The notes under the pieces were generated by a model. That model was given only the letters and a program-made list of their open reading frames with translations, did no database searches and was not told the DNA's origin. Positions 26,153 to 63,426 of a stretch of 64,000 nucleotides of DNA are shown piece by piece (positions within the stretch are counted from its first letter, which is position 1; each line of letters begins with the position of its first letter). This DNA comes from Lentisphaerae bacterium RIFOXYA12_64_32 (GTDB taxonomy: Bacteria > Verrucomicrobiota > Lentisphaeria > Oligosphaerales > YB12-FULL-65-16): NCBI GenBank assembly GCA_001803235.1, contig MHBL01000055.1, positions 2,415 through 66,414 on the forward strand. Reading direction: 5' to 3'. Both the position numbers and the translations under genes were made by a program.

Positions 26153-27334
26153 ATGAAATCGAACTGTTGCAGCAAGAAGTGGCTGATGGCTCTCGGTCTC
26201 GCATGGCTCGTGAGCCTGACGTCGCGGAGTTTGGCGGCCCCGCCGCTGCCACGCCTTCCTGAGCCCGTGTCAAACCTGCTCGGAGCACCACTGCCCAACG
26301 TGGGCCACGGGCCGGGAATCCAGGTTCACCGGGACCAGGACGGCGCGGGGATAAGCGCAACACTGATGGCCGGCATCAAGGAAGAGAAAGTATGGTTCGG
26401 TCCGGTCAGCCTTCCGCCTGACGCCGGCACGCTCCGGTTCACCGCCGCCCTCACACTCATCGGCAAGCCCGGATGTCAGGTCTCCGCGGTATTCACATCC
26501 GGAGGCGTGGCCCACGAGCCGCGTCCGATCCCCTTCTCGCGCCATGCCGCGCTGATCGGCAACGTGTTTCAGGACCTCTTCATCGCCGTACCTCCGCAAG
26601 CGGAAAGCATAAGACTTGAATTCCACTTCAGCGTCGTGGATGCCGAAGCGGAGGGGGGCTTGCGCCTGCGGTATCCGTGCCTCACCGCCGTGGCGCCAGC
26701 GGCCATCGAGCAGACTCCGGCCGAGGAGCATGTCATCTTCCGAAACCGATTCTCCCGGCCCGATGTCAGTGCGGATCTGATCAGAGGTGCGCCGGCGCCC
26801 TGGCCAGCCTGGTCCTGCCTCGAGCCCACGACGGAAGGGAAGGCCGGGCCGGGCCTGCGAACCGAGCAACCGCAAGACGCCGTCTCTTTCGTCCTGCCGT
26901 CACAACAGCTCGTCGCACGTGGAACGGTCGCGTTGTGGCTGCAACCGCTCTGGTCCCAAGGCGATGCGCGCCCGGCGGACATTCTCAAACTGACCCAGGG
27001 CAAGGGCGCAATCCTGATCCGAAAGAACCATGGTTGGTCGTTCCTCTTTGTCCTCTGGGATGCTGAACGCCGGACGCACGCCGTGTCCTGTGACCTGAAG
27101 ACTTTCACCCGCGGGCAGTGGACGCGAATCGAAGCGGCGTGGGACGCCGAGAAGGGCATGGGCCTGAGCGTGAACGGCGTGAAGCTGGCAACCGAGGATT
27201 GCACTTGGTCCGCACCGCCGCCGGAGCCGCTGGAACTGCGCCTGGGTCAGGGGCAGGACGGCGAAGGCCAGAGGGCGCCGTACGTTCTCGATGACGTGGA
27301 AATCCTGGTCGACACAAGACAGGGAGCGCTCTGA
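26153..27334 (+). CDS. Exported LamG-domain protein
   Basis: About 393 residues from the ATG at 26153, with AGGAGG (26141-26146) six bases upstream. The signal peptide is KKWLMALGLAWLVSLTSRSLA. The C-terminal ~190 residues show a LamG/concanavalin-like pattern (GTVALWLQPLW... ILIRKNHGWSFLFVLWD... GQWTRIEAAWDAEKGMGLSVNGVKL... YVLDDVEIL). The N-terminal half is beta-rich and unassigned. It is likely a glycan-binding protein. It follows the double-GH20 gene by about 90 bp. Confidence 0.75.
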   Translation: MKSNCCSKKWLMALGLAWLVSLTSRSLAAPPLPRLPEPVSNLLGAPLPNVGHGPGIQVHRDQDGAGISATLMAGIKEEKVWFGPVSLPPDAGTLRFTAALTLIGKPGCQVSAVFTSGGVAHEPRPIPFSRHAALIGNVFQDLFIAVPPQAESIRLEFHFSVVDAEAEGGLRLRYPCLTAVAPAAIEQTPAEEHVIFRNRFSRPDVSADLIRGAPAPWPAWSCLEPTTEGKAGPGLRTEQPQDAVSFVLPSQQLVARGTVALWLQPLWSQGDARPADILKLTQGKGAILIRKNHGWSFLFVLWDAERRTHAVSCDLKTFTRGQWTRIEAAWDAEKGMGLSVNGVKLATEDCTWSAPPPEPLELRLGQGQDGEGQRAPYVLDDVEILVDTRQGAL

Positions 27335-27381
27335 TGCAAAGTTTCAGGGGTCAAGGTTCAGAGGGCGGGGCTAGGGACCGG

Positions 27382-27451
27382 GTGTTCGGTGTTCAGTTCT
27401 GGATTCAGCATTCATCGTTCAGCATTCATCGTTCAGCATTCATCGTTCAGT
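27382..27451. repeat. Heptamer tandem array (GTTCAGC/ATTCATC)
   Basis: Ten consecutive 7-bp units: GTGTTCG, GTGTTCA, GTTCTGG, then alternating ATTCAGC/ATTCATC/GTTCAGC units. The first units are the reverse complement of the units at 208-249. Confidence 0.9.
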
Positions 27452-27571
27452 CTCAAGCGGGTGTGCAGCGGCCCCGTCATTCGACCCCCACGACCCAGAG
27501 TCGCCGTGCGGCTTGCCACGCCGAAGTTGCCCCGAAACGAAGGCGGGAGCACGCCTCCCACATTCTTCCCC

Positions 27572-27606
27572 CACTCGACACTCGTCACCAGACACTCGAC
27601 GGTCAG
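27572..27606. repeat. Heptamer tandem array (CACTCGA)
   Basis: Five 7-bp units: CACTCGA, CACTCGT, CACCAGA, CACTCGA, CGGTCAG. The array ends 24 bp before the proposed GTG start of the next gene. Confidence 0.75.
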
Positions 27607-27630
27607 CGTCGGGGGCGTGGTGGCCGGTTC

Positions 27631-30600
27631 GTGGCCGCAACGGCCGCCGCATGCCTGCTTCTGGCCGCCGGCCTGACCGCGGCGGAGAAGCCCTTTCCGC
27701 CCGTGCCGCAGTGGGAGAACCTCGGCACGGTCGATATCGTTCCGTGTCCGAAGCGGATCGAGTTCACCGGCGTCCTGACGTGCGGTGCGGAGTCGCCGTC
27801 AATCCTCTTCGTGCCGGACGCGGAACACCATGCCGAAACCGGCGCGGCGGAAATCGCCGCGCGGATCGCCGAACTCGGCGGCGCCGCCGCGCCACCTGTG
27901 TCCGTTCCCGATGCAGCGGCCGCCGTCAATGCGCTGACCGGCCCGGCGGTTCTCATCGGCTATGGTGCGGGCGACCTTCCCATGCCGAACGTCGAGCATG
28001 AGTACCAGGGCGTTAGCGCCTGGGACGAGGAGCAGGGCTACGTCATTGCCCCGTGCCGGTTGAATGGTTGCGACACGGTACTCGTGTGGGGCCGCGAGCC
28101 GCTCGGCGCGCTTTACGGCTGCATCACACTGCGGCATCTGCTGTCGCGCGACGGTGACGCCGTCGTGCTGCGCACGGCTACGGTGGTCGACTGGCCTGAC
28201 TTCAAGCGCCGTATCACCAGCGGCTTCCAAGGCCCGCGCGACGACACGGAGCAATCCGTCGCCACGGCAGTCGAGACGGCAAAGCGGTTTGTTCGGCGCG
28301 CGGCCCTGCTGAAGTGCAACGCGGTCTCTCCCATGCCCTGGCCGCTGACCGACTATCTGCGCGAACGCGAGCTGACAATGCTCGAGCAACTCCTGCCTTA
28401 CGCGAAACGCTACGGGGTCCGCTTTCACATCCTGCACTTCACCAGCGTCGGATGGGAGGCGCGCGACAAACACGACCCCAAGTACGCGACAGTGCCCGCC
28501 ATGCGCGGCTACTACATGTCCTGGTCCCACAACGACCTGATCCGGGAAAGCATGGACCGGCTCAGGAATGAAGTCCGGCGCCTTGGCGGCAACGCGGACT
28601 GGGCCTTCCACTATCCCGACATGTTCGAGGGTGGTTGGCCGCAGAGGTCCGCGCCGTGCCGGGAACGCTGGGGCGACGACCGGGCCGCGGCCGATGCCAG
28701 CTTCGGCAACAGCCTGTACCAGGCCGTCCACGGCGAGTCCGCATCCAGCCGGCTCGACCTGGTCAACTACCCGTACGGTATGAACCTCGACTACCCGGGC
28801 AACGCCAGAACGCGGCAGTACTTCGAGCGGCTCTCCGCCCTGCTGCCGGAGGACGTCCTGTTCTCGCGGCGCGAAGGGACACGCGATGCGTTCGCCTCGT
28901 GGTGGCGCCACATCCGGCAGCCGATTTGCGTGTGGTGGTCGCCCGAAACATTCTGGGGCGCGCGCGCCCTGGCCCCGGACATGGCCTTCGTCAAGAGCGC
29001 GTGGCGCGGCCACGCCGCCGATGCCGTTCTCGACTGCCTCACGGTACACACACGCCCCGTCCTGGATGTCTCCGGCTACACCTTCGCGGAATACGCCTGG
29101 AACGTGGCCGCGCCTGGATCAGGGATCTGGCAGCCCGATCCCGCCGCCGATACCAGCGAGCCCGCGTCGGGCGTGGTGGGCGACTACGTGAGCGACCGCG
29201 TGCTGGCGCCGGACGGCTCGCCGTGGACGCGCTGGACCTACTTGCAGGGGCGCTTCGACCCGCGTGCGTTCAACTACGATCTTGTTGAACGCTGCTGCCG
29301 TCTCATCTACGGTGACGCTGCAGCGCCGGCCCTGGCGGAATCGCTGCGATACGCGCCGCTCGTCGCCGAGCGCTACTGGCCCTCCGATCCGGTCATCGCC
29401 GCCGCGCTTGCGGAGTCCGCGGACCGCTCGTTCCAGGCCCTGGCGCCGTTGTGGGGCCGGAAAGAGCTGTTCCAGAAATCGCCGGGCAGCCAGGTCGACA
29501 CGTACCCGGTGTATGCGCAGATGCTGAAGGTCAACACCGACCTGCGGGCCATCCTCGGCGCACGGGCGGCCAAGCTCGCGGCAGATGCCAAGCTGGAAGA
29601 GGCCAGAAACGCGATCGATCGGGACGTGAAGCGCGTGGCGGCGCAAGCGGCGGCGGAGTCCGCAATCCAGGGCTTGGTTTTGATCGAGAAGCACCGCGAA
29701 AAGCTGCGTGAAGCGTATCAACGGTATGAACTTGAAGGGAAAGGCTGGTACTTGCTGCTCGCGGACGGCTACAAGAGACGCGACGATGTCGAGAAGAAGC
29801 TGGATGCATTCGTGGGCGGTTTCCGGCTCGTTCGTGAAGAGGCCGAGGTCTTGGTGACGACCGCCGCGTCGAGCGCACGCCGTCGCCAGGTTCTCGTTCC
29901 GGAGACAGCTCGCGAGTTCGCCATCGACGGAGACGCCGCCGAGTGGCCACTCCTCAACCCGATTCTCATCACGACAGAGACCTGTGCCGAAAGCGCGGCC
30001 ATCCGGCCCGCGCCTCACGCAGACGCGGCGGCCGTCTGTTACATGGCGTGGGACAAGACATGGCTGTACGTCCTGGCCAAGGTCGTCGATGACGTCGCGC
30101 CCACCGCTGCCCAAGGGACGCGCACCACCGGGGACACACTCCATCTCTGGGTGAACGGCAATCACTACGCGGCGGGAACGGGACCGGATGGCGCGGCGAA
30201 GATCGAAACCTACGCGGGGCTTCCTCCGGCGGGCGCCGCGATCGCCATCCGGCCCGTGGCCGCCCACAGTCTGGCCCCGGACTTCTCCCTGCTCACCCAT
30301 GGACCCGCCGACATGGACGGGAAACCAGGCTACATCGCCGAACTCCGACTGCCATGGGAACCCACGCGCGTTCGCCCTGACCTCGATGCCACGTTCTGCC
30401 TGGCGCTCGGGCTCTGCGACCGGGACGACGGGGAGCAGGAAACGACCGAACTGGTCTTCCCGACGACCTACAAGCCGCTTGCCGCAGGAGGACTGCTCAC
30501 CGATTTCGCCGCCGCGCGACTGGCTGGAACATGCCCGGTCCGCTTCGAACTCGTCGACCTGCGCAAGGAAGACCGCACCATGCAACTGGGCACGGACTCG

Positions 30601-30858
30601 TTCATCCATGCACGTCTGGTCATCAGTGCTCCGGTCGACCTCACAGACTTGCGCGTCCGCTTCGCAGCCTTCGACGACGACGGCAAACCCCTCAAGTCCG
30701 GAACCCTTCCCGGTGTGCCGGGAATTTTGCGTCAGGGCAAGGCGTGGCAATCAGACCCGTTCGAGCTGAACGCCGGCCACGCGAGAGAGAACGTCCCGTT
30801 GGTGTTCACGCTAACCGCCAACGAAGCGGGCACTCGAACCGCAGTAACCGTCAAATAG
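27631..30858 (+). CDS. Exported GH20-fold protein with CBM9-like C-terminus (paralogue 1)
   Basis: About 1075 residues if the GTG at 27631 is used. This puts a signal peptide (AATAAACLLLAAGLTAAE) at the very N-terminus and gives nearly the same length as the 1077-residue paralogue at 32565. The open frame extends 99 codons upstream, but only through repeat DNA. After the signal come PQWENLGTVDIVPCPKRIEF, a zincin-like N-terminal domain (GALYGCITLRHLL, VVDWPDFKRR), and a barrel-like central region. From about residue 760 a CBM9-type module follows (EFAIDGDAAEWPLLN..., AWDKTWLYVLAKVVDD, DTLHLWVNG). No GH20 HDE catalytic motif was found, so the central domain may have another mechanism. It is likely periplasmic or surface glycan processing. 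Confidence 0.75.
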   Translation: MAATAAACLLLAAGLTAAEKPFPPVPQWENLGTVDIVPCPKRIEFTGVLTCGAESPSILFVPDAEHHAETGAAEIAARIAELGGAAAPPVSVPDAAAAVNALTGPAVLIGYGAGDLPMPNVEHEYQGVSAWDEEQGYVIAPCRLNGCDTVLVWGREPLGALYGCITLRHLLSRDGDAVVLRTATVVDWPDFKRRITSGFQGPRDDTEQSVATAVETAKRFVRRAALLKCNAVSPMPWPLTDYLRERELTMLEQLLPYAKRYGVRFHILHFTSVGWEARDKHDPKYATVPAMRGYYMSWSHNDLIRESMDRLRNEVRRLGGNADWAFHYPDMFEGGWPQRSAPCRERWGDDRAAADASFGNSLYQAVHGESASSRLDLVNYPYGMNLDYPGNARTRQYFERLSALLPEDVLFSRREGTRDAFASWWRHIRQPICVWWSPETFWGARALAPDMAFVKSAWRGHAADAVLDCLTVHTRPVLDVSGYTFAEYAWNVAAPGSGIWQPDPAADTSEPASGVVGDYVSDRVLAPDGSPWTRWTYLQGRFDPRAFNYDLVERCCRLIYGDAAAPALAESLRYAPLVAERYWPSDPVIAAALAESADRSFQALAPLWGRKELFQKSPGSQVDTYPVYAQMLKVNTDLRAILGARAAKLAADAKLEEARNAIDRDVKRVAAQAAAESAIQGLVLIEKHREKLREAYQRYELEGKGWYLLLADGYKRRDDVEKKLDAFVGGFRLVREEAEVLVTTAASSARRRQVLVPETAREFAIDGDAAEWPLLNPILITTETCAESAAIRPAPHADAAAVCYMAWDKTWLYVLAKVVDDVAPTAAQGTRTTGDTLHLWVNGNHYAAGTGPDGAAKIETYAGLPPAGAAIAIRPVAAHSLAPDFSLLTHGPADMDGKPGYIAELRLPWEPTRVRPDLDATFCLALGLCDRDDGEQETTELVFPTTYKPLAAGGLLTDFAAARLAGTCPVRFELVDLRKEDRTMQLGTDSFIHARLVISAPVDLTDLRVRFAAFDDDGKPLKSGTLPGVPGILRQGKAWQSDPFELNAGHARENVPLVFTLTANEAGTRTAVTVK

Positions 30859-40117: not shown

Positions 40118-41944
40118 ATGGACAATGGCAAACGCACCGTATTCACGCATTTCGGCATGATGCCGACGATGATCACGACCTCGCTGGCGGATGACGCGCA
40201 CTACCGCGTCTGGTCGCGCGGCGAGGTGCGGACGCTCTGGCGCGAACTGCTGTACAAGACGCCGTTCCCCGCCACGGCCCACGCCACGCCGGACGCGGTC
40301 TTCGCCGGCCGGCGTTCGACCGTGACGATCACGCTTGTACCGCAGAAGGCGATCGCCGTGGGCGGGCACGTGACGCTGCTGCTGCCCGAGTTCTGGGGCG
40401 GGATTGCGCAGGAGCGCGACTGCACGACTTTCTTCCTCCGGCACTCGCCGCAGACCTACCCCGGCTACGTGAGCAGTCACATCACCGCGCGTGCCACGGG
40501 CGCGTGCCGTATTGAGGGCACCATCACCACCGCCGGGTCCGTGCACACGGTCATTGATGTGGTGGTGCTGGACGCGCCTCTGGCGCCGGGCGACCAACTC
40601 GCCATCGTCATTGGCGACCCGTGCGGGCAACCCGTCCTGCCGATCGATTACAGCGGCACCTACTTCTTCAACCTGGCGGTCGATGCCGAGGGCAACAAGG
40701 ACTACGCGGCCGTGCTGCCGTTGCCCGCTGTGCGGGTCATGGGCGACACGGCACAGCGCTACCGCGTGACTGTGCCGGCATGCTCCGCGGGAGACGAACT
40801 CGCCGCACGCGTTGTCCCCATCGACGCGGCCCTCAATCGTTCCGAACTGCCGGTGGCAGCCCACGAAGCGACGGAGGACACCGGCGACGGGTTCCGGCGC
40901 GTCGTGGCCACGAACCGCAACGACGGCCTCGCGGGCCGGAGCAATCCCTCGGTCAGAGGCGAGTGGGTGCAGGGCTACAACGTGTACTTCGGCGAAATCC
41001 ACACGCACACGGAGTTGAGCGACGCCATTCGCAGCCTCGACGACGCGTACCTGTTCGCCCGCGACGTGCTCGGCCTGGACTTCGCCGCCATCTCAGACCA
41101 CTTCGAGAAGGGCCAGCCCAGCATGGTGCATCGCGCGTCCGACAAGTGGGCCATGACGAAGGACGCGGCGGCACGGTTCCACAACCCCGGCGCGTTTGTA
41201 ACCCTGCTCGGGTACGAGTGGGGTGGAAAACCGCACATCAACATCTACTATCGCGGCGGCGACGGCCTATGCGTGCCGGCCGATGACCCGCGCGGGCGCA
41301 ACCCTGCCGACCTGTACAAGACCCTGGCGCAGGACGGGAAACCGTTCGTGGCCATTCCGCACCACCCGAAGTACCTGTCCCCCGCCGACTGGTCCGTGAC
41401 CGATGGCCCGGCCCAGCGACTCATCGAGATCTACAGCGGCTGGGGCTCGTCGGAGGACGGCAACGAATCCGCCTACCGTGCATCGCTGGCGCGCGGACTG
41501 CGCATGGGCATCATTGGCGGGACGGACAATCACATCGGGCGGCCTGGCCAGGGTAACCGCACGTTCGAGGGCGGCGGGCTGGCGTGCGTGCTGGCCCCGG
41601 CGCTGACGCGCGAAGCCCTCTTCGATGCGCTCATGGCCCGCCGGTGTTACGGCACAACCGGGGCGCGAATGCTCATCGATCTCCGGGTGAACGACACGTT
41701 GATGGGCGGCGAGACCGCCGCGCGGCCACAGCAGGCCGTATCCGTGCGGGCGATCGGCGAGGCGACGCTTTCAACCGTGGAGATCCTCCGCAACGGCGAG
41801 GTGGTTCACACACAAAAGGTCGCCGCCGATGCCGTCAAACTCGAGTGGGAAGATGCGTCCTCGACAGGTGGCGCCTACTATGCGCGCGTCACCCAGCGCG
41901 ACGGGCACGTGGGCTGGGCCAGCCCGGTTTGGGTCGGCGGCTGA
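40118..41944 (+). CDS. DUF3604/PHP-type putative metallohydrolase 1
   Basis: A 608-residue protein without a signal peptide; GGAGG lies just upstream of the ATG. After an N-terminal beta-rich region (~280 residues) comes a PHP-like metal-binding core: YFGEIHTHTELSD, LDFAAISDH, FVTLLGYEWGG, AIPHHPKY, IEIYSGWGSSE, GIIGGTDNHIGRPG, RRCYGTTGARM. The His/Asp pattern matches PHP-fold metalloenzymes (DUF3604/CehA-like). Substrates in this group are mostly unknown, with ester or phosphoester hydrolysis most often proposed. A C-terminal beta domain ends GHVGWASPVWV. Two paralogues lie at 49185 and 61435. Confidence 0.8.
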   Translation: MDNGKRTVFTHFGMMPTMITTSLADDAHYRVWSRGEVRTLWRELLYKTPFPATAHATPDAVFAGRRSTVTITLVPQKAIAVGGHVTLLLPEFWGGIAQERDCTTFFLRHSPQTYPGYVSSHITARATGACRIEGTITTAGSVHTVIDVVVLDAPLAPGDQLAIVIGDPCGQPVLPIDYSGTYFFNLAVDAEGNKDYAAVLPLPAVRVMGDTAQRYRVTVPACSAGDELAARVVPIDAALNRSELPVAAHEATEDTGDGFRRVVATNRNDGLAGRSNPSVRGEWVQGYNVYFGEIHTHTELSDAIRSLDDAYLFARDVLGLDFAAISDHFEKGQPSMVHRASDKWAMTKDAAARFHNPGAFVTLLGYEWGGKPHINIYYRGGDGLCVPADDPRGRNPADLYKTLAQDGKPFVAIPHHPKYLSPADWSVTDGPAQRLIEIYSGWGSSEDGNESAYRASLARGLRMGIIGGTDNHIGRPGQGNRTFEGGGLACVLAPALTREALFDALMARRCYGTTGARMLIDLRVNDTLMGGETAARPQQAVSVRAIGEATLSTVEILRNGEVVHTQKVAADAVKLEWEDASSTGGAYYARVTQRDGHVGWASPVWVGG

Positions 41945-42180: not shown

Positions 42181-44040
42181 ATGTCGAGCATCACGTATGA
42201 CGCGTATCGAACCAAGGTATTCGGTTGCTGGCTGGGCAAGTCCATCGGCGGCACGCTCGGCGGGCCGTGGGAGGGGCGGACTCCGCCGCGCGAACTGACC
42301 TACTACGATCCCGTGCCGACGGCAATGCTCGAGAACGATGACCTAGACCTGCAGCTCGTGTGGCTGGCGCGACTGCGCGAATCGGGGTTCCCCATCACCG
42401 GGACATTGTTCGCGCGTGCGTGGCCCGCGAACATCCAGGCGTGGCCGGACGAGTATGGCGTGTGCATCCGGAACCTTGACCAAGGTCTGCGACCGCCGTT
42501 GAGCGGCGCCTATGACAATGGGTTCACTGCCGGAATGGGTGCGGCCATACGCACTGAGCTCTGGGCTTGCCTGGCCCCGGGCGACCCGGGTCTGGCGCAA
42601 CGCTTTGCCCGCGAGGATGCCCGCTCGGACCACGCCGGCGAAGGCGTGTACGCGGCGGAGTTCCTGGCCACCATCGAGAGTCTCGCGTTCGTCGAGTCGG
42701 ATCGGGAGCGCCTCATCGATGCCGGCCTGCAGGCGATCCCGGCGCAGTGCCGGGTGGCGCGGGCCGTGCGCTTCGTGCGTGAGGAATGGGCGCGCCAGCC
42801 TGAGCGCGCCGCGGTGTTCGAGCGGCTCAACCGGTCGCATGGTCATCAGAACTTCACCGACGTGGCGATCAACCTGGCCATCATCGTGCTCGGCTGGTAC
42901 GCGGGCGGCGGCGACTTCGGGCGCTCGATCCTGGCTGCCGTCAACTGCGGCTACGATGCCGACTGCACGTGCGCCACCCTCGGCGCCATCCTGGGGCTGA
43001 TCAACCCGCAGGGCATCGGCGAGGAGTGGAAGAAGCCCATCGGCGAGAAGATCGCCATCGGCGGCTACATCACGGGCATCGCGGCGCCCGCAACGCTGGA
43101 TGAGCTCACCGACATCACCGGCACTTTGGCGCAGAAGGCGCTGTCATACTACGGCTCGTCGGTACGCCTGGTCAAGGGGCCGAAATCGCGCCTGGCCTGC
43201 CTCGAGCGTTACCCTGCAGCCACCGGACGCGCCCTGCGCACGTTGTCTGTGCCCGACTCGGCAAGTGTGCTGGCCGACTACCCGCTCCACGTCAGGCTCG
43301 ACTACCCGGCCGCGGTGCGGGTCGCACCCGGCCAGCGCGGCCGTTTCCGGCTGGTCGTGACGAACGTAACGAACCGGGCGATCAAGGCGGCCATTGAACT
43401 GCGTGCGCCGCTCGGGTGGCGGCTTGGCGGCCGCACGAAACTGAGCGTCACGGTCAAGCCCAAGGCAACCGTGTCGATGTCGCTCACCGCGATGCCGGAA
43501 GAGCACGCCTGGCGCCCGTATTCGTCCCAGCTCGGCGTGTTGTGCAAGGTGAACGGGGTTGTGCAGGAGTTGACGGCGGGCCTGCTCATGACCATCCCGT
43601 TCAGCGTTTGGGACCTTCGCGAAATCGCCGACAAGGAACCCGTGCGCCCCGCCGCTGCGCAGTGCGTGGAAGCTGCCTCTCACTTCCTCGATCTCGCACC
43701 GTATGCGCGGCAGAACCGCGTGCTCGTGGCGCAGTTCGAATGCAAGGATTTCATTTCGCGGAACTCGAAGCGTCGTTTCGTCATTCAGGCATCGGCTGCG
43801 ACGACGGTGTGGATCAATGGGGAGAAGGTCTTGGCGCACGATGGCGCCTGGCACGTGTCGGCACTGCATCGCGCCAGGAACACCTGCGCGGACGTGGTGG
43901 TCACGTCGCCGGTCCGCGTTACCATCGCGATCAGCGGCGGCACGCCGGGTGAGCTCTTTCATGCGATCGGCGAACCGAGCGGTAACTGCAACCGCTGGAC
44001 CGCGCTCGTGGAGTACCGTGGCCAGTGCCGAAAGGAATGA
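42181..44040 (+). CDS. ADP-ribosylglycohydrolase-family protein with C-terminal beta domains
   Basis: A 619-residue protein with no signal peptide. Residues about 5-330 match the ADP-ribosylglycohydrolase fold: KVFGCWLGKSIGGTLGGPWEG, ENDDLDLQLVWL (metal-binding acidic cluster), DNGFTAGMGAAIR, and CGYDADCTCATLGAILG, the conserved second acidic motif. The remaining ~290 residues carry beta domains (VRVAPGQRGRFRLVVTNVTNRA, then a domain ending GECNRW-like) not usual in the basic family. Some members act on substrates other than ADP-ribose, and the setting suggests a sugar-linked substrate (inference). Its stop codon overlaps an upstream ATG of the next gene (ATGA), and that gene's chosen start is two bases past the stop, so translation is probably coupled. 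Confidence 0.85.
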   Translation: MSSITYDAYRTKVFGCWLGKSIGGTLGGPWEGRTPPRELTYYDPVPTAMLENDDLDLQLVWLARLRESGFPITGTLFARAWPANIQAWPDEYGVCIRNLDQGLRPPLSGAYDNGFTAGMGAAIRTELWACLAPGDPGLAQRFAREDARSDHAGEGVYAAEFLATIESLAFVESDRERLIDAGLQAIPAQCRVARAVRFVREEWARQPERAAVFERLNRSHGHQNFTDVAINLAIIVLGWYAGGGDFGRSILAAVNCGYDADCTCATLGAILGLINPQGIGEEWKKPIGEKIAIGGYITGIAAPATLDELTDITGTLAQKALSYYGSSVRLVKGPKSRLACLERYPAATGRALRTLSVPDSASVLADYPLHVRLDYPAAVRVAPGQRGRFRLVVTNVTNRAIKAAIELRAPLGWRLGGRTKLSVTVKPKATVSMSLTAMPEEHAWRPYSSQLGVLCKVNGVVQELTAGLLMTIPFSVWDLREIADKEPVRPAAAQCVEAASHFLDLAPYARQNRVLVAQFECKDFISRNSKRRFVIQASAATTVWINGEKVLAHDGAWHVSALHRARNTCADVVVTSPVRVTIAISGGTPGELFHAIGEPSGNCNRWTALVEYRGQCRKE

Positions 44041-44042
44041 CG

Positions 44043-47000
44043 ATGAGACGACAACGCCAGGTATGGACGACCGTCGCGGGAAGATTCCTGACTCAGATCG
44101 CGTTGCTGGGGTGGTGCGTCTTCATGCCGTGGGTATCCTGGGCCGCGGATCCCGCGGCCCAGGAGTTCGCGCGCCAGGCGCTGGCGGCCACGGGTGTTCG
44201 GGGCGGCCTGATCGTACACCTCGGCTGTGGCGACGGGCAGGTGACGGCCGTGTTGGGGGAGGGGGACGGGGTTGTCGTGCACGGCCTGGACGCCGACGCG
44301 GCGAATGTCGACAAGGCTCGCGCCCTGTTTCGGTCGCTCGGGATCCACGGCAAGGTCACTGCGGAACGCTGGACAGCGGCCGCGTTGCCGTATGCCGACA
44401 ACCTGGTCAACCTGTTGATCGCGGAGAACCTGGGGGCGGTGACGCAGGACGAGGTGATGCGGGTCCTGTGTCCGAACGGCGTCGCGTATGTGAAGCAGGG
44501 CAAGGATTGGCGGACGTTGATCAAGCCGCGACCGGCGGAACTCGACGAATGGACGCACTACCTGCACGACGCCAGTAACAACGCCGTGGCTCACGACACC
44601 GTGGTCGGGCCGCCGCAACGCCTGCAGTGGCTCGGTGGGCCGGCGTTTGCGCGGCACCACGAGAAGCTCGCCAGCATCAGCGCTGTGGTCTCGGCGGGTG
44701 GACGGATATTCTACATTGCCGACGAAGGCTTGCCGGCGTCGATTCTTTTTCCCGGGCGCTGGTCGCTGGTGGCGCACGACGCGTTCAGCGGCGTGCAACT
44801 CTGGAAACGGCCACTGGAAAGTTGGGCCCCGCACCTGTGGGGGTTCTTTGACGGGCCGCCGGAGATTGCCAGACGCCTGGTCGCGGTGGGGGACAAGGTG
44901 TATGTCACGCTCGGTTATCCCGCACCCCTGGTGGCCCTCGACGCGGCTACCGGCGCTACGGTCATGACCTATGCCGGAACGGAGAACACCGAGGAAGTGC
45001 TGTGGCAGGACGGGACCTTGTTTCTCGTCGTGGGCGATCTGGCGGCAGCACCGCCGGCGCCGGTGAAGAACCGGCCCTGGGCCGTGGTTCGAACCCCGGA
45101 ACCGGCGCGCGGCCTGATGGCCGTCGACGCAGCCACCGGCAACGTGCTGTGGAAGAAGCCCGGTTTGAATATGTTCGCCATGACGCTCGCAGTGACCGGA
45201 CCTCGCGTCTTCTACCAGACGCCGGACGCCGTCATCGGTCTCGACGCCAAGACGGGTGCGGAGCAATGGCAGAGCCCGCGTCCGTCGCCCGCGACGCGTC
45301 CGACATGGTCAGCGCCCACGCTGGTCGCCTACGGTGACGTCGTCCTGAGCGAGGACCGGAATGCGGATGTCGTGCCGCCGCCGCCCGGATCGAAGGTGCA
45401 CAGTCCGACATGGTCGTTGTACTACACCGGCGGGCCGGGCGAGATGATCGCATTCTCGGCCGCCACGGGCGCGCGGCTCTGGTCCTGCAAGAGTTACGAT
45501 ACGCACCGGGCGCCGGGCGACCTGTTCGTGATTGACGGCCTGGTCTGGGTCGGCAGTTCGAAGATCCGCAACACGGAGGATTTCACCCAGGGGCTGGATC
45601 CCATGACCGGCGAGGTCAAGCGCAATCTCTCCACGGCCGCGGCGTTCACGTCCGTGCACCATCACCGCTGCTATCGCAACAAGGCCACGGACAAGTTCAT
45701 CCTCGTGGCCAGGACCGGGACCGAGTTCATCGACATCCAGACGGGGGCTGCGTGTCGGAACAACTGGGCGCGCGGCGAGTGTCAGTATGGCATCATGCCG
45801 TGCAACGGCCTGCTGTACCTGCCGCCGCACCCCTGCGCCTGCTATATCCAGGCGAAGCTGAACGGGTTCATGGCCCTGGCCCCGGCGGTGAATGCCGCTG
45901 CGCCACCCCAGGCGGAGGCGCCCAGACTGGAAACCGGTCCTGCCGCCGCCGCCGACCTCGCATCCGCGAACACAAACGAACAAGACTGGCCCAGCTACCG
46001 CTCCGACCCGGCGCGCAGCGGTAGAGCCAGGACAACGGTGCCGAGTCTGGACTTGAGTCCGGCGTGGCGGACCGTGATCGGCGGGCATCTCAGCAGCCCG
46101 GTCATGGCGGATGGCCGTGTGTTCGTGGCCGCTGTCGACGACCATGCCATTCACGCTCTCGATGCCGCCGATGGGAAGGACGCCTGGCAGTTCACGACCG
46201 GCGGGCGAATCGACTCGCCGCCCACGGTCAGCCAGGGGCGGGTGGTCTTTGGGTGCCGTGATGGCTGGGTCTACTGCCTGCGCGCGACCGATGGCGCACT
46301 GGCCTGGCGCTTCCGCGCTGGCCCTGGCCCGACGGAACGCCGTGTCGTCGACAACGACCGGCTCGAGTCGGCGTGGCCGGTGCATGGCAGCATTCTCGTT
46401 GAGGACGGTGTGGCGTACTGCGTCGCCGGCCGCTCCGCCTACCTGGACGGCGGGTTGCGTCTCTATGCGCTGGATCTGAAGTCCGGGCAGCTCGTTCGCG
46501 AACAGAGCATCACCGGTCAGGAGGATGGAGACAAGTTCACGCCCGGCAAGGACTGGGTGCATGTGGCCCTGATCTGGGACGGCAAGACCGCGACCGGCTA
46601 CATCGATGGCCGCGGCGAGTCGGTAGAGCCAAGCGTTGCCGACGGAAAGTCCACCTACCAAGGCCTGCGTATCGGGCATCAGCTCGACAAGTGGTTCTTC
46701 AAAGGCCCGATCGACAACGTGCGCATCTACCGGCGTGCGCTCTCCCTCGCGGAAGTCAAGGCGATCTACGAGTCTGAGCGGCCAGCAGCGGCAGCACCCG
46801 GTCCGGCACGCGCCGGGGGCGACACGCTGAACGACGGGCTGGCCGTGCACCTGACGTTCGACGAAGGCACGGGTGAGATCGCGCATGACCGCTCGGGCAA
46901 CGGACACGACGGCAAGGTGATCGGCGCCGAATGGGTCCCGAACGGGACGGGACACGCCCTGCAGTTCAACGGCACGGACGCCTGGCTCGAGTGCGGCAGT

Positions 47001-48047
47001 CCGGCCGACCTGAACTTCGCCAGTCCGATCACCCTCTCCGTGTGGGTGCGACCCGAGACCATGCCGAAAGGCGGCAAGGACGCCGTGATGATTCTTGGAA
47101 GCGGTTCCGCGTTCTGGAACGGTCCCTACAGCCTGAGCATCCGCAACGGGCGTTTCTGCGCCGACATCAATGATCCGCAGGCCGGGAAGCGCTACATGTT
47201 CTCCTGGGGTGCGATGGGCGACAGCATCGACATGCCCGGCGGCCTGCCCGACGTGCTGTCTGCTGTCGGTGACATCGTCTACCTCCGCGAGCTCGCGTTC
47301 GACCGCCAGACCCTGGCGCCGCGCGAGGACGGCGAGCGGCACCTGTTCGGGTCGGACGGGTTCCTGCACGATGCGTGGTGGCACCGTGCCTACTGGATCT
47401 ACGGCACGCGGTTCCGGTCCGGCGCCGCAGGCTGGTACCTCTCCGGACGCGAGTTTCCCGCCGGCAAGATCCTGGCCATGGACGACTCCTCCGTATACGG
47501 TTACGGGATGAAGCCCGACAACTACCGCTGGACGGCAGCGCTGACGTACGAGTTGTTCGCGGCCAGCAAGGATGCCGGGTCGACGCCGATCCCCGGCCGT
47601 GAGGGCGGCGCTCAACCGGGCGCGCTGCCGCGTGCGGAGTTCGCACGCCTCTGGACGCAGGATCTGCCGATCCACGTTCGAGCCATGGCATTGACCGATG
47701 GGGCGCTGTTCATTGCCGGGCCGCCGACGGCCATGGACGAGGAGAAAGTCTACGCCCAGCTCAAGCCCGGGCAGCCCGCGCCCCAGGAACTGCTCGATGC
47801 CGAAGCTGCGTTCCTGGGCAAGAAAGGCGGGAGTCTTCTCTCCGTCAAGCCCGGCGACGGGACAACCGCGAAGGAGTACCCGCTCGACTCGCCGCCCGTC
47901 TTCGACGGCCTGATCGCGGCACGCGGGCGGCTCTACCTCGCCGCCATGGACGGCGCCGTGGTCTGTCTCGGCGGACGGGATGCCGCGCACGCACCGGGAG
48001 GGGCCGCCAAAACTCGCTTTGCGGAACCGGCAGCGGGCGCGAAATAG
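44043..48047 (+). CDS. Exported methyltransferase-like / PQQ beta-propeller / LamG fusion
   Basis: A 1334-residue protein. The ATG at 44043 is preferred over 44037 because AAAGGA is correctly spaced for it. A signal peptide-like segment (TQIALLGWCVFMPWVSWA) is followed by a Rossmann methyltransferase-like domain (residues about 55-160: LIVHLGCGDGQVTAVLG, HGLDADAANVDKAR, LPYADNLVNLLIAEN, RVLCPNGVAYVK). PQQ-like beta-propeller repeats follow (LVALDAATGATV, LMAVDAATGNVLWKK, IHALDAADGKDAWQF, VYCLRATDGALAWRF), interrupted near residues 830-1020 by LamG segments (DWVHVALIWDGKTATGYIDG; LAVHLTFDEGTGEIAHDRSG). SAM is not expected outside the cytoplasm, so the methyltransferase domain may only bind something else. 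The role is unknown. Confidence 0.85.
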   Translation: MRRQRQVWTTVAGRFLTQIALLGWCVFMPWVSWAADPAAQEFARQALAATGVRGGLIVHLGCGDGQVTAVLGEGDGVVVHGLDADAANVDKARALFRSLGIHGKVTAERWTAAALPYADNLVNLLIAENLGAVTQDEVMRVLCPNGVAYVKQGKDWRTLIKPRPAELDEWTHYLHDASNNAVAHDTVVGPPQRLQWLGGPAFARHHEKLASISAVVSAGGRIFYIADEGLPASILFPGRWSLVAHDAFSGVQLWKRPLESWAPHLWGFFDGPPEIARRLVAVGDKVYVTLGYPAPLVALDAATGATVMTYAGTENTEEVLWQDGTLFLVVGDLAAAPPAPVKNRPWAVVRTPEPARGLMAVDAATGNVLWKKPGLNMFAMTLAVTGPRVFYQTPDAVIGLDAKTGAEQWQSPRPSPATRPTWSAPTLVAYGDVVLSEDRNADVVPPPPGSKVHSPTWSLYYTGGPGEMIAFSAATGARLWSCKSYDTHRAPGDLFVIDGLVWVGSSKIRNTEDFTQGLDPMTGEVKRNLSTAAAFTSVHHHRCYRNKATDKFILVARTGTEFIDIQTGAACRNNWARGECQYGIMPCNGLLYLPPHPCACYIQAKLNGFMALAPAVNAAAPPQAEAPRLETGPAAAADLASANTNEQDWPSYRSDPARSGRARTTVPSLDLSPAWRTVIGGHLSSPVMADGRVFVAAVDDHAIHALDAADGKDAWQFTTGGRIDSPPTVSQGRVVFGCRDGWVYCLRATDGALAWRFRAGPGPTERRVVDNDRLESAWPVHGSILVEDGVAYCVAGRSAYLDGGLRLYALDLKSGQLVREQSITGQEDGDKFTPGKDWVHVALIWDGKTATGYIDGRGESVEPSVADGKSTYQGLRIGHQLDKWFFKGPIDNVRIYRRALSLAEVKAIYESERPAAAAPGPARAGGDTLNDGLAVHLTFDEGTGEIAHDRSGNGHDGKVIGAEWVPNGTGHALQFNGTDAWLECGSPADLNFASPITLSVWVRPETMPKGGKDAVMILGSGSAFWNGPYSLSIRNGRFCADINDPQAGKRYMFSWGAMGDSIDMPGGLPDVLSAVGDIVYLRELAFDRQTLAPREDGERHLFGSDGFLHDAWWHRAYWIYGTRFRSGAAGWYLSGREFPAGKILAMDDSSVYGYGMKPDNYRWTAALTYELFAASKDAGSTPIPGREGGAQPGALPRAEFARLWTQDLPIHVRAMALTDGALFIAGPPTAMDEEKVYAQLKPGQPAPQELLDAEAAFLGKKGGSLLSVKPGDGTTAKEYPLDSPPVFDGLIAARGRLYLAAMDGAVVCLGGRDAAHAPGGAAKTRFAEPAAGAK

Positions 48048-48295: not shown

Positions 48296-48862
48296 ATGGC
48301 AGCACGACCCAACGTACTCTGGATCATGACCGACCAGCATCGCGCCGACTGCCTCGGTTGCATGGGGCATCCGGCGGTGCGGACTCCGCACCTGGACCGG
48401 ATCGCCAGGGAGGGTGTGGTTTTCGAGAATGCCTTCTGTCAGAGCCCGGTCTGCATGGCGTCGCGGGGTTCGGTGTTCACCGGTCGCTATCCTGCCGCGA
48501 TCGGCATTCGCGGCATGGGTATCCTTCCCCCGCAGGAGACGACCACGCCAGAGCTGTTCCAGCGCCATGGCTACCGCACCGGCGCGTTTGGCAAGGTGCA
48601 CCTGACGCCCGAACTCTACACTCGCCGGATTTTGAAATCCGAAACGCCGATCCTGGACTGGCGCGCGTTCGCCGACGCCGCGTGCCTCGCCCCGATCCCG
48701 CCCGACCCGCGCAAGGAACGGTACGGTTTCCAGGACTACGTCGGTTGCGAGGACTGCCTGCAGGGCAGCTTCCGCGAGGTGCGGGATGAGATGCTCTGGC
48801 GGCTGACGCGGCGGTTGACTCGGAATCTGGACCCGTTGCCTCTGGTTCTGTCGCAGTACTGA
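48296..48862 (+). pseudogene. Truncated sulfatase (N-terminal third only)
   Basis: A 188-residue frame starting RPNVLWIMTDQHRADCLG with the active-site motif SPVCMASRGSVFTGRYP (Cys53, C-M-A-S-R, ready for formylglycine formation). It stops after LVLSQY. Normal type I sulfatases are 450-550 residues. The later FTSDHG-type metal site and the C-terminal subdomain are absent, and I find no continuation in any frame of the 322 bp that follow. It is therefore most likely a deletion remnant, although the short protein may still be translated. The neighbour downstream is DUF3604 protein 2. Confidence 0.75.
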
Positions 48863-49184: not shown

Positions 49185-50660
49185 ATGAACCCAGACGGCA
49201 TGCTGTGCATCATTCCCTCCCGGATGGGGGTGGGCGAGGAGTTCGGGCTCAGTGTCAAGCTCACCGGTCCGGTGCGGGCCATCCCGAGTGCGGCGCAGTG
49301 GAACACGCCTAAGCCCGCACTGCGCGGGCCCTTCAACCTGAATGCCGAGCGCCGCATTCAGTATCTCGACAACTGCCTGCCCGAATGGCAGGGAACGCTG
49401 CGGCTCGACGGCGGCGCCGCACTGTCGGGCACCCAAGACATCACCTTCGACGGCCTGCAGCAGGGCGTGTTCCCGGGTGACCGGCGGCCCGTCGGCCGGT
49501 TCGGTGGGTACCGCTGGACCGAGCCCGGGTTCCATTTCCTCAGAGTCATTGACCCAGCCTCCGGGCTCGAGTGCTGGGCCAACCCGGTCTTTGTCACGCC
49601 CGCGCCGCCGGTTGAACGCATCTACTGGGGCGACCCGCACTGGCAAACGTTCTTCAGCGACGGCATCCGCTGTCCAGAGGAACTCTATGCCTTTGCCCGC
49701 GACGAGGCGTTTCTCGACTTCGGCGCCATCAGCGACCACGTCGAGGCCCTGACCGACCGGCAGTGGGACTACTTCATCGCGGTGACCAACGACCACAACT
49801 CCCCCGGCCGGTTCGTCACGCTCGTCGGTCAGGAGTGGACAAACAGCAGGCCGGGCCACCGCAACATCTACTATCGCGCGGACCACGGACCGATCCTGCG
49901 CTGCACGGACCCGCGCTATGACACCTTGCCCAAGCTGTGGGCCGCCTTGGACAACCTGCGCGAGCTCGACCCCATTGCGATCCCGCACCACAGTGCCAAC
50001 AAGGTCATGGGGTGCGATTGGGAGCTGGGCTGGAATCCCACGTACGAGAAGGCCGTCGAGGTGTACTCCGTCTGGGGCAGCAGCGAGTGTCCCGCGGCTC
50101 AAGGCAATCCCCGGCCCATTCGGGCCTGCGACGGGGAGGTGCAGGGCCGGCACGTCATCGACGCGTTGCGGAAGGGCTATCGCTTCGGGTTCGTGGGCGG
50201 CGGCGACATCCACGACGGGCGCCCGGGCGACGATCTGCATGCCCGTCAGTCTGACGTCGCAGGTTACGCGGACCTGTATCCCCAAGGCCTTACCGCATGC
50301 ATCGCACCGTGCTTGATGCGCGACGCCATCTTTGATTCCATCAAGGGCCGCCGAACCTACGCCACGACGCTGAGCCGCATTTACCTGGACACCGAGTGGC
50401 AAGCGCAAGGCGACAAGAAGCGAGGCCGGCTGGCAATCCGCGCCGCGAGCGAAGCGGGGATCCTGAACGTTGCCATCATCGGCAATGAGGGCGAGATTGA
50501 GCGGGTCCAGCCCGAGGCCGACTCGCGACGAATAGAAGCCGTCGTCGACGTGGGCGAACTGGCTCCCGACCGGTTCTGCTACGTCCGCGTCGCGACGAAG
50601 CGCGGGGACATGGCCTGGTCCAGCCCGGCTTGGGGTGCTGAGAACGCCGATGGTCAATAG
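49185..50660 (+). CDS. DUF3604/PHP-type putative metallohydrolase 2 (altered HxH motif)
   Basis: A 491-residue paralogue of the gene at 40118, shorter at the N-terminus, with GGAG upstream of the ATG and no signal peptide. The core motifs are in the same order: IYWGDPHWQTFFSDG, LDFGAISDH, FVTLVGQEWTN, AIPHHSANK, VEVYSVWGSSE, FGFVGGGDIHDGRPG, RRTYATTLSRI. The first metal motif reads H-W-Q where paralogues have H-x-H (HTH, HGH), so one metal ligand seems replaced while the others are kept. Activity may therefore differ or be lost. It follows the truncated sulfatase. Confidence 0.8.
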   Translation: MNPDGMLCIIPSRMGVGEEFGLSVKLTGPVRAIPSAAQWNTPKPALRGPFNLNAERRIQYLDNCLPEWQGTLRLDGGAALSGTQDITFDGLQQGVFPGDRRPVGRFGGYRWTEPGFHFLRVIDPASGLECWANPVFVTPAPPVERIYWGDPHWQTFFSDGIRCPEELYAFARDEAFLDFGAISDHVEALTDRQWDYFIAVTNDHNSPGRFVTLVGQEWTNSRPGHRNIYYRADHGPILRCTDPRYDTLPKLWAALDNLRELDPIAIPHHSANKVMGCDWELGWNPTYEKAVEVYSVWGSSECPAAQGNPRPIRACDGEVQGRHVIDALRKGYRFGFVGGGDIHDGRPGDDLHARQSDVAGYADLYPQGLTACIAPCLMRDAIFDSIKGRRTYATTLSRIYLDTEWQAQGDKKRGRLAIRAASEAGILNVAIIGNEGEIERVQPEADSRRIEAVVDVGELAPDRFCYVRVATKRGDMAWSSPAWGAENADGQ

Positions 50661-60566: not shown

Positions 60567-61291
60567 GGCAGCAAACCGTGAGAGCCATTCAGTTCCCGTC
60601 CCCGTTCGATGCAGGTGGACGTGAGCAACGGGCCGTTCGCGGCACGGCGAGGCTTCGCCGCCGTTTTACGCTCATCGAGTTGCTGGTCGTCATCGCCATC
60701 ATCGGGATCCTTGCATCCCTGCTGCTGCCGGCCCTGGCCAATGCCAAGGACAAGGCGAAGCAGATGACCTGCCTGTCCGGCATGAAGCAACTGGCGGTGG
60801 GGTGCGCCATGTACGAGGACGACAACGGCTACTACCCGGGGACGTGGTGGGATGGGTTGCCGCCGCCGCCCTGGATCGGCACGTGGCGCTACTGGGCGAA
60901 CTACGTCTACCCGCACGTCGGCGACAAGCAGGTGTTCTATTGCCCGAGTTTCACCGCGAAGACTGCACCTACGTATGGCATAGAGAACTCGTACGGCATG
61001 CCCTGGTGGTATTACGGCGCAACCGACGCCTACTTCAAGAAGATGACCTATGGCGTGTCCGGTACCGTGATGATCATGGAGACGTCTTGGGGTGTGCTCG
61101 ATGGGCAGACTTACTTCGCCAGTTGGCTGGCGCCATTCAGTGGCCGGGTCCGGGATCAGCACAATCTCGGCACCAACACGGCGTATGCCGACGGTCACGT
61201 CCAGTGGTCACGGGTGAGCGGTATCCAGCGTCTGGCGTGCGTGCGTTCCGGCACCTGGGGCTGGACCGGCGGCGTACTGCCCGGACCGTGA
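60563..61291 (+). CDS. Pseudopilin 3 (prepilin cleavage site, H-X9-DG)
   Basis: A 242-residue protein whose ATG overlaps the stop codon of the upstream giant gene (ATGA at 60563-60566). The leader is long (~34 residues) before [20 protein letters not shown], then [20 protein letters not shown], and the C-terminal [12 protein letters not shown] (H-X9-DG). Same family as pseudopilins 1 and 2. The overlap strongly ties its expression to one exported protein. If the long leader is real it is unusual for the family; no internal ATG before the motif is obvious. Confidence 0.9.
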
Positions 61292-61300
61292 CGGCAGAGC

Positions 61301-61420
61301 GCTTGCGGCGGTCTGGCGTGGGGATGGTGTCTTGCCCGGCGGATCCCGCCTGTCAGGCGGGACCGGGACTGCGACACCACGACGAACGGTGCCGGGGCCG
61401 GATTTACCCGCACAGGTCGC
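61301..61420 (+). repeat. Dispersed repeat R1, copy B (structured)
   Basis: Second copy of R1, matching the minus strand of 14386-14510. The outer stem GGTGTC...GACACC and the CCCGG...CCGGG step are kept. The tip differs (CCCGCCTG/CAGGCGGG here) yet still pairs perfectly. It ends 14 bp before the DUF3604 protein 3 start codon, so it would lie in that gene's leader. Confidence 0.8.
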
Positions 61421-61434
61421 AAAGGAATCACTTC

Positions 61435-63426
61435 ATGGTCAGGCCGACAGCGCCTCACATGCCGCCCTGGGCGCGGCCTATCCGGATCCCCGAGAGCATC
61501 GAGGTCACGCATGCGGACCCGGCGTTTGCCATTGCCAATGAGTGCGGCACGTGGCGGCTTCCCTTCAGGTTGGCGAAGGATGTGCCGGCGGGGGCTGTAC
61601 TGAAGCTTCAAGTCTGTGGCGGTCGGAACAACAAGGGCAACTTCCCCGGTGCGCAGACCGCGAACCCGAATGGCGACGGCTATCTCTCTGCACGGCTGGA
61701 TGACGGTGCCACGCTGTCTCTGGCGCCGGACACGCATCCCGGCACGTATGTGATCACCGTTCCTGCGGGCGGCCTGCGCAAGGGGCAGACTCTGACGGTT
61801 GTCCTGGGCGATTGCGCCGGTGGCGGCAAGGGCATCAAGGCGTGTCCGGATCGCCTGCTGAACAAGTTCTTTGTTCTCTATGCGTTGGCCCAACAACAGG
61901 CCGAAGGGAAGACGCCGCAGTGGGCCGGAGGCGATGTGTGGGCGGCGGGAACCGCCGAGCGCATAGTGGCTGCCTGCACCATGCATGTCTTGGGCGGGGC
62001 CACAGACCACCTCCGCGTCTTTGCGCCAGCCACGACCCGGCTGGGCGCGCCGGTCACGCTTCTCATCCGGCCGGAAGACGTACTCGGCAATCTCTCGCAT
62101 CAGGCTCCGGGGCCGATCGAGCTGTCCCTCGGCGGGGCGCCGCTCCGTGCGACGACCGAGCAGGTCCTTGACTCGACCTGTGTCCGCGCCGGGGTCGCGC
62201 TGTCGACCGAAGGCGTGCACCGGGTCACGGTGCGGGACACGGCGTCGGGCCGAGAGGCACTGAGCAATCCGACCGTCTGTTCCGAGACGGCGTCGCCCGC
62301 CTACTGGGGCATGATCCACGGCCACACGGAGATGTCCGACGGCACCGGGACGCTCGAGCAGTACTTCCACCAACTCCGGAACGAGGTCGGGCTCGACTTC
62401 GGCGCCACCGGAGATCACGACCACCTGTGGGAAACGTCGGACGAGTACTGGCAGACCACCTGTGCGGCCGTGAAGCGCTGGCACGCGCCGCGCGAGTTTG
62501 TCACGTTCCTCGGCTACGAATGGGCCAAGTGGCGCAAGAACGGCGACGGCGACCGCAATGTCTACTACCTGGACGATGACCAGCCCATGTACCGCTCCGA
62601 CGACACCGAGCATCCGACCCCGCCCGACCTGTTCAAGGCGCTGCGCCGGAACCGGGCCAGGGCCATCGTCATTCCGCACCACACGGGGCACGGCGGCAAC
62701 TTCTGCGACTGGAAGGATCACAGCCCCGAGCACGAACGACTGGTCGAGATCTTCCAGGTCCGCGGGAGCTACGAGTGCTCCAAGGAGGACGGCAACCCGG
62801 TCCCGGAAACAGCGGCGACGCCAGCGCCATACCCGGACGGCACCGTGCAGCGCGCCCTGGCGCTCGGCTGGCGCGTTGGGTTTACGTCCGGCGGCGACGA
62901 CCACAACGGGCACTGGGGCACCGAGGTGCGGTTCGCCTGGGGCTACAAGCAAGGTCTGATGAGCGTCGAGGCCGGCGCACTCACGCGCGAGGCGGTGTTC
63001 GAAGCCTTGTACCAGCGACGTGTCGTGGCCACGACAGGCGCGCGAATGCTGCTGTCCTTCAGCCTTGACGGCAAACCCTTCGGAGCGGAATTATCCCTGC
63101 GCGACAGCCCGGCACTGGCGTCCTGCCGACGTCTGGCGGTCGAGTTCCACGGCACCGCTGCGCTGGCGCGGCTCGACATCATCCGCAACAACCGTGTGGT
63201 GCATTCCATCCCTGGCGCCGGCGAAACCGATATGCGCGCGACGTGGGACGACACCGCGCCGCTCGACAGCATCTGGCTGCCGGCGGCGCCGTTCTGCGCC
63301 CACCCGTTTGCGTTCTACTACGTGCGCGTCATCCAAACCGACGGCGAAGTGGGCTGGGCCAGTCCGGTCTGGATCGATCCGTGGCGGGGCGCAGTCGGCA
63401 CCCCGCCGGCCCCGCCTCAGCCGTAG
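61435..63426 (+). CDS. DUF3604/PHP-type putative metallohydrolase 3
   Basis: About 663 residues from the ATG at 61435 with AAAGGA upstream. The frame is open further left through repeat R1 and the pseudopilin gene, but without a start signal. No signal peptide. N-terminal beta-rich region, then the metal core: YWGMIHGHTEMSDG, LDFGATGDHDH, FVTFLGYEWAK, VIPHHTGHGG, VEIFQVRGSYE, GFTSGGDDHNGHWG, RRVVATTGARM, and a C-terminal beta domain ending EVGWASPVWI. All expected His/Asp ligands are present. It follows pseudopilin 3 by 143 bp filled by repeat R1. Confidence 0.8.
   Translation: MVRPTAPHMPPWARPIRIPESIEVTHADPAFAIANECGTWRLPFRLAKDVPAGAVLKLQVCGGRNNKGNFPGAQTANPNGDGYLSARLDDGATLSLAPDTHPGTYVITVPAGGLRKGQTLTVVLGDCAGGGKGIKACPDRLLNKFFVLYALAQQQAEGKTPQWAGGDVWAAGTAERIVAACTMHVLGGATDHLRVFAPATTRLGAPVTLLIRPEDVLGNLSHQAPGPIELSLGGAPLRATTEQVLDSTCVRAGVALSTEGVHRVTVRDTASGREALSNPTVCSETASPAYWGMIHGHTEMSDGTGTLEQYFHQLRNEVGLDFGATGDHDHLWETSDEYWQTTCAAVKRWHAPREFVTFLGYEWAKWRKNGDGDRNVYYLDDDQPMYRSDDTEHPTPPDLFKALRRNRARAIVIPHHTGHGGNFCDWKDHSPEHERLVEIFQVRGSYECSKEDGNPVPETAATPAPYPDGTVQRALALGWRVGFTSGGDDHNGHWGTEVRFAWGYKQGLMSVEAGALTREAVFEALYQRRVVATTGARMLLSFSLDGKPFGAELSLRDSPALASCRRLAVEFHGTAALARLDIIRNNRVVHSIPGAGETDMRATWDDTAPLDSIWLPAAPFCAHPFAFYYVRVIQTDGEVGWASPVWIDPWRGAVGTPPAPPQP

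Follow-up and report, generated by a model that had tools for sequence, protein, structure and literature searches.

The question raised by the open reading frame at 44043-48047 of the window, by which we mean the whole stretch of 64,000 nucleotides analyzed here, is what a methyltransferase-type Rossmann domain is doing behind an apparent signal peptide. Cells make and use SAM in the cytoplasm. A preliminary description of this DNA offered three ways out, namely that the domain works on another ligand, that it has been repurposed, or that the protein stays in the cytoplasm. We favor an exported, repurposed domain with ligand-binding and scaffold functions over an active methyltransferase. In the form to which we give an even chance, the gene encodes an exported propeller protein whose repurposed methyltransferase fold holds a small non-SAM ligand in most of the family and acts as a scaffold in the remaining members.

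Domain layout and export

The coding sequence begins two bases past the stop of a preceding ADP-ribosylglycohydrolase-like gene. Its features are listed below, with MT standing for the methyltransferase-like domain and P1 and P2 for the two propellers.

44031..44036, + strand, Shine-Dalgarno-like AAAGGA, six bases 5' of ATG 44043
44043..48047, + strand, whole coding sequence, 1334 aa plus stop (ATG at 44043, stop codon ending at 48047)
44043..44144, + strand, Sec-type signal peptide, residues 1-34 (from the sequence and from 98/99 homologues)
44169..44540, + strand, MT, methyltransferase-like Rossmann domain, residues 43-166 (Pfam, AlphaFold2, Foldseek)
44217..44219, + strand, H59, position of the motif-I acidic residue (His in 98/110 rows; Asp in the PDB alignments)
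44223..44237, + strand, glycine loop G61-C-G-D-G65 (G61 kept in 108/110, G63 in 100/110 and G65 in 103/110 rows)
44289..44291, + strand, D83, acidic residue ending strand 2, the ribose-binding position (D in 94 and E in 4 of 110 rows)
44409..44411, + strand, N123, position of the motif-IV Asp (Asn in 109/110 rows)
44544..45950, + strand, propeller P1, residues 168-636 (PQQ_2; model together with MT; Foldseek)
45669..45842, + strand, four invariant P1 cysteines C543, C580, C598 and C600 (87/87 rows)
45981..46520, + strand, first part of propeller P2, residues 647-826 (PQQ_2 at 674-834; Foldseek to BamB)
46521..47168, + strand, circularly permuted LamG inside P2, residues 827-1042 (same site and order in 2/87 rows)
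47169..47978, + strand, second part of propeller P2, residues 1043-1312 (continuous with the first part where homologues lack LamG)

The signal peptide has an n-region with four Arg, a core LTQIALLGWCVF with a mean hydropathy of 1.81, and an SWA|AD-type end. Scored by a hydropathy-based rule rather than by a trained predictor, a basic n-region and hydrophobic core stand directly before MT in 98 of 99 homologues, these 99 being the ones with enough upstream sequence out of 103. The sole in-frame starts downstream, TTG 44103 and ATG 44124, have no ribosome site comparable to that of 44043. A start downstream of the signal peptide, which the preliminary description had singled out as the observation that would undo it, is not seen, and both a late start and a frame artifact are ruled out by the ribosome site at 44043 together with the signal peptides of the homologues. 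A loose twin-arginine-like motif, RRx[FL], occurs in only 5/103 signal regions; Tat export of the family is unsupported, which makes it unlikely that the domain is exported folded and loaded with SAM.

The genome of the window (10.6 Mb in 503 contigs) carries seven genes in the order MT-P1-P2 and, under the heading of class B, eight further paralogues (L016 to L023) in the order P2-MT-P1, which is a permutation of the three-part protein at the level of the gene. Seven of these class B paralogues start with a signal peptide followed by P2, and MT-like sequence is met about 400-570 residues further along in frame. L022 retains a Methyltransf_25 match at 2.8e-12, and in some of the others MT is weak or degenerate. 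From the near-universal signal peptides and the mid-protein position of MT in exported paralogues it follows that a cytoplasmic MT is very unlikely. An ordinary methyltransferase kept in the cytoplasm, either by a downstream start or by an N-out anchor, could make use of the in-frame ATG 44124, which would bypass the signal peptide, but the ribosome site matches 44043, the homologues keep the signal peptide, the positive charge ahead of the hydrophobic core predicts that the C-terminus is out, and the exported class B proteins hold MT in their middle. We give this explanation hardly any weight, and the cytoplasmic option of the preliminary description is close to excluded.

The pocket of MT and its changes across the family

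Pfam matches residues 57-149 of MT to Methyltransf_25 at 8e-7 (30.1 bits against a cut-off of 27) and to Methyltransf_11 at 2e-4 (22.2 bits against a cut-off of 21.2). The AlphaFold2 model of MT-P1, made with 89 sequences, has a pLDDT of 90.6 and a pTM of 0.92, with pLDDT mostly 93-98 in MT. Foldseek aligns the domain, about 120 residues, to the same Rossmann fold in class I SAM methyltransferases (RebM 3bus, SpnL 7v6h, SpnF 4pne, TleD 5gm2, LahSB 6uak) with E from about 1e-8 to 1e-7, and one of these templates was solved with SAH. MT belongs to the Rossmann methyltransferase fold both by its Pfam scores and by Foldseek, and the Rossmann domain with LGCGDG that had been described as lying between signal peptide and propeller is confirmed by Pfam, the export signal and the model. 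MT and the class I enzymes share the GxGxG loop, the strand-2 acid and an LPY.DN segment. MT differs from them in being exported, in having His in motif I, Asn in motif IV and a variable adenine acid, in being trimmed past strand 5, and in that several family members have lost the loop. That the fold can be repurposed is indicated by SpnF, which the PDB lists as a [4+2]-cyclase.

The positions of the SAM pocket were assigned by alignment with the PDB methyltransferase templates. The GCGDG loop of the window's protein is an intact GxGxG; among homologue rows the loop is intact in 76/89 and changed in 13/89. The acid at the end of strand 2 is retained, with D or E at position 83 in 98/110 rows. 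The motif-I acid is absent, its place being taken by H59, and so is the motif-IV Asp, its place being taken by N123, in each case across nearly all rows. The adenine-binding acid at strand 3 (residue 111) is not conserved, being acidic in only about 30%. Within the 76 loop-intact rows, H59 is kept in 73 and D/E83 in 74. Mean pairwise identity at long range among loop-intact members is 61% for MT, 49% for P1, and 59% and 41% for the two parts of P2, which places MT ahead of the other domains in conservation. The spacing from G146 to D168, which leads from strand 5 to P1, is 21 residues in 62/87 rows; the stretch is longer and includes a helix-like part in class B and in some class A paralogues.

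The state of the loop, intact or changed, needs ten changes on the P1 tree. In 7 of the 13 loop-changed rows a single glycine of the three is altered, a change which may or may not abolish ligand binding. The closest relative, L025, which is 68% identical, has lost the glycine loop entirely, and its identity is 52% in MT versus 73% in P1. Throughout the loop-changed rows LPY, N123, E137 and R140 are kept (13/13), D/E83 is kept in 4/13 and H59 in 6/13; the association of loop loss with the loss of D83 or H59 is not significant after correction for relatedness (4 versus 1 and 3 versus 1 pairs). The simplest reading of this pattern would be that MT has two layers, a dispensable ligand site and an indispensable packing face. 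Loss of the SAM pocket in homologues, the other observation named in advance as damaging to the preliminary description, is found in a minority through about ten changes, and elsewhere the pocket is kept, making it neither generally lost nor essential.

The pocket is exported, its usual cofactor is expected to be absent, and its loop is kept in several phyla, which suggests that the domain was recruited to serve a different ligand or a scaffolding role. From the family-wide changes to the standard SAM pocket we infer, as the favored step, that the domain is repurposed or serves another ligand, and these are the options of the preliminary description that we retain. An active SAM-dependent methyltransferase outside the cytoplasm, supplied with SAM by leakage, by an exporter or by lysed neighbors, seems improbable to us. 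It would account for the conserved glycine loop and strand-2 acid and for the matches to class I methyltransferases, including the one solved with SAH. The same glycines and acid, kept in most members as SAM binding would also require, are the counterpoint to the explanation that we prefer, and a His in place of the motif-I acid is not enough by itself to exclude SAM. Set against activity are the combined changes of the motif-I acid to His and the motif-IV Asp to Asn with a variable adenine acid, the repeated loss of the loop, the scarcity of twin-arginine-like motifs in the signal regions, and, as weak evidence, that no secreted or periplasmic methyltransferases were found in the literature searched.

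Less improbable than an active enzyme, and still on the unlikely side, is that MT is purely a structural remnant, without any ligand, whose one role is to cap or orient P1. Such a remnant would be consistent with the roughly ten changes of loop state, one of them in the relative closest to the window's protein, with the invariance of structural positions where the loop is lost, and with the trimming of the C-terminal substrate half. What it does not explain is the coherence of the pocket where the loop glycines are intact (76/89), with H59 in 73/76 and D/E83 in 74/76, or that MT is conserved above either propeller, which a pure scaffold would not need across several phyla.

In the preferred explanation, that of an exported domain repurposed for ligand binding and scaffolding, the protein, whose gene lies in a genomic region rich in genes for glycan degradation, would leave by Sec and act in the periplasm or extracellularly. 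MT would have descended from a class I SAM methyltransferase that was cut to strands 1-5 and a short hairpin and joined to P1, and its methylating activity is most likely gone. A pocket for a small ligand available outside the cytoplasm would still be shaped by the glycine loop and strand-2 acid; with acids around it lost, it would accommodate a neutral or anionic ligand more readily than cationic SAM. The face formed by strand 4 and helix E (LPY..N..N, E137, R140) may hold MT in place, probably against the propeller; both the pocket and this packing interface are deduced from sequence. In some lineages the pocket would be lost and MT retained as scaffold only. Binding or catalysis would fall to the propellers, with the permuted LamG contributing an affinity for carbohydrate. 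The sequence and the model establish the fold, the signal for export, the pattern of conservation and the order of the domains. A little more tentatively than the even chance given at the outset, we propose that a Sec-exported class I methyltransferase fold has come to serve, in several phyla, as an extracytoplasmic receptor or cofactor site whose ligand is not SAM, within a family of three-part propeller proteins in the orders MT-P1-P2 and P2-MT-P1. A conserved methyltransferase-type pocket that is exported would be evidence either of an unrecognized ligand for a very common fold or of SAM chemistry outside the cell.

Propellers and the permuted LamG insert

Pfam finds PQQ_2 at 4e-36 and Laminin_G_3 at 1.7e-16 in the open reading frame. 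The best Foldseek match to P1 is tetrathionate hydrolase of Acidithiobacillus ferrooxidans (6l8a, 7cqy; E 1e-15), a PQQ-family propeller, followed by BamB and PQQ dehydrogenases; P2 matches BamB and PQQ dehydrogenases. The identity of P1 to tetrathionate hydrolase is 13-15% over the aligned part, the likeness being one of fold only, and the four invariant cysteines belong to P1's own family. These cysteines sit with HHRC and CxC motifs, have counterparts in those class B paralogues whose P1 is complete, and may form disulfides or a metal site. P1 and P2 resemble BamB/PQQ_2 propellers and PQQ alcohol dehydrogenases in sequence as well as fold, but the open reading frame scores 74 bits against the NCBIfam cut-off of 285.2 for BamB and 47.1 bits against the cut-off of 480.05 for PQQ-dependent alcohol dehydrogenase. 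The vicinal Cys-Cys disulfide of the PQQ alcohol dehydrogenases has no equivalent, with no CC anywhere in the protein.

The LamG insert separates P2 residues that are adjacent in other homologues, and it runs in the order C-half, linker, N-half. As found, it gives two partial Laminin_G_3 matches totaling 62.9 bits; with the halves reordered it gives one match over the full profile, 1-151/151, at 69.7 bits. We read it as a single permuted domain plugged into a loop of P2, differing from Laminin_G_3 (ConA-like) in its C-half-first order and its position in a propeller loop. The preliminary description had spoken of propeller repeats interrupted by LamG modules, of which the interruption stands and the plural gives way to one circularly permuted LamG. 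L025 shares the site and order (hence 2/87 rows), and a sister-genome paralogue, L185 (G114:C165), has a permuted LamG at a different P2 loop. An assembly artifact is ruled out by L025, which is in another genome, and by L185. A recent donor for the LamG was not found in its own genome, where the best matches have 29-44% identity. A structure model of P2 with LamG is good for P2 and poor in the LamG region, with pLDDT <50. A paper on other Verrucomicrobia proteins lists LamG among their carbohydrate-binding modules (PMC5615132). Two contigs of the window's genome (G000 C381 and C165) hold open frames, 6237 and 7045 codons long, in which LamG matches also run C-half, linker, N-half, as expected of tandem LamG.

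Family spread and genomic setting

When bacteria and archaea are scanned with one genome per species, 487 loci are found that encode an MT-P1 relative, distributed over Planctomycetota, Armatimonadota, Verrucomicrobiota and others; the scan pattern was placed in P1, so there was no selection for the methyltransferase loop. The best 80 of the 487, which are biased toward near relatives of the query, have 44-68% identity across about 600 residues and come from Planctomycetota (Phycisphaerae, Pirellulales, Sedimentisphaerales, Brocadiia), Armatimonadota, Poribacteria, Verrucomicrobiota, Kiritimatiellota and Sumerlaeota. Occurrence in the window's own phylum is patchy (11/195 genomes). A comparable set of family genes occurs in a sister genome from the same order, whose best locus is on the same contig as L025 (Kiritimatiellota genome). 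L035, L040 and L058 have three family copies each, and L084 and L091, both from Verrucomicrobia, have three adjacent family genes per locus, with the glycine loop lost in the first of each. A published description of this domain architecture was not found in the literature searched. The family is also a secretome marker in Planctomycetota and related phyla, in which general libraries recognize its members as no more than PQQ_2 or BamB-like propellers.

The window contains sulfatase, GH20, ThuA, 3-keto-disaccharide hydrolase, DUF3604, LamG, malectin and LacI regulator genes, and because it holds sulfatase, GH20 and similar genes, glycan breakdown is the likely context of the open reading frame. 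Near the homologues there is no constant partner, with only Gfo/Idh/MocA (8) and sulfatase (6) recurring among 102 neighbors. The sulfatase open reading frame at 48296-48862, of 188 aa, aligns to no more than the opening third of Pfam's Sulfatase model, includes a CxAxR-type active-site stretch, and looks internally deleted. The open reading frame at 27334-30858, of 1174 aa, has no Pfam match at 1e-5. Three DUF3604 genes are found within 24 kb, at 40118-41944, 49185-50660 and 60802-63426.
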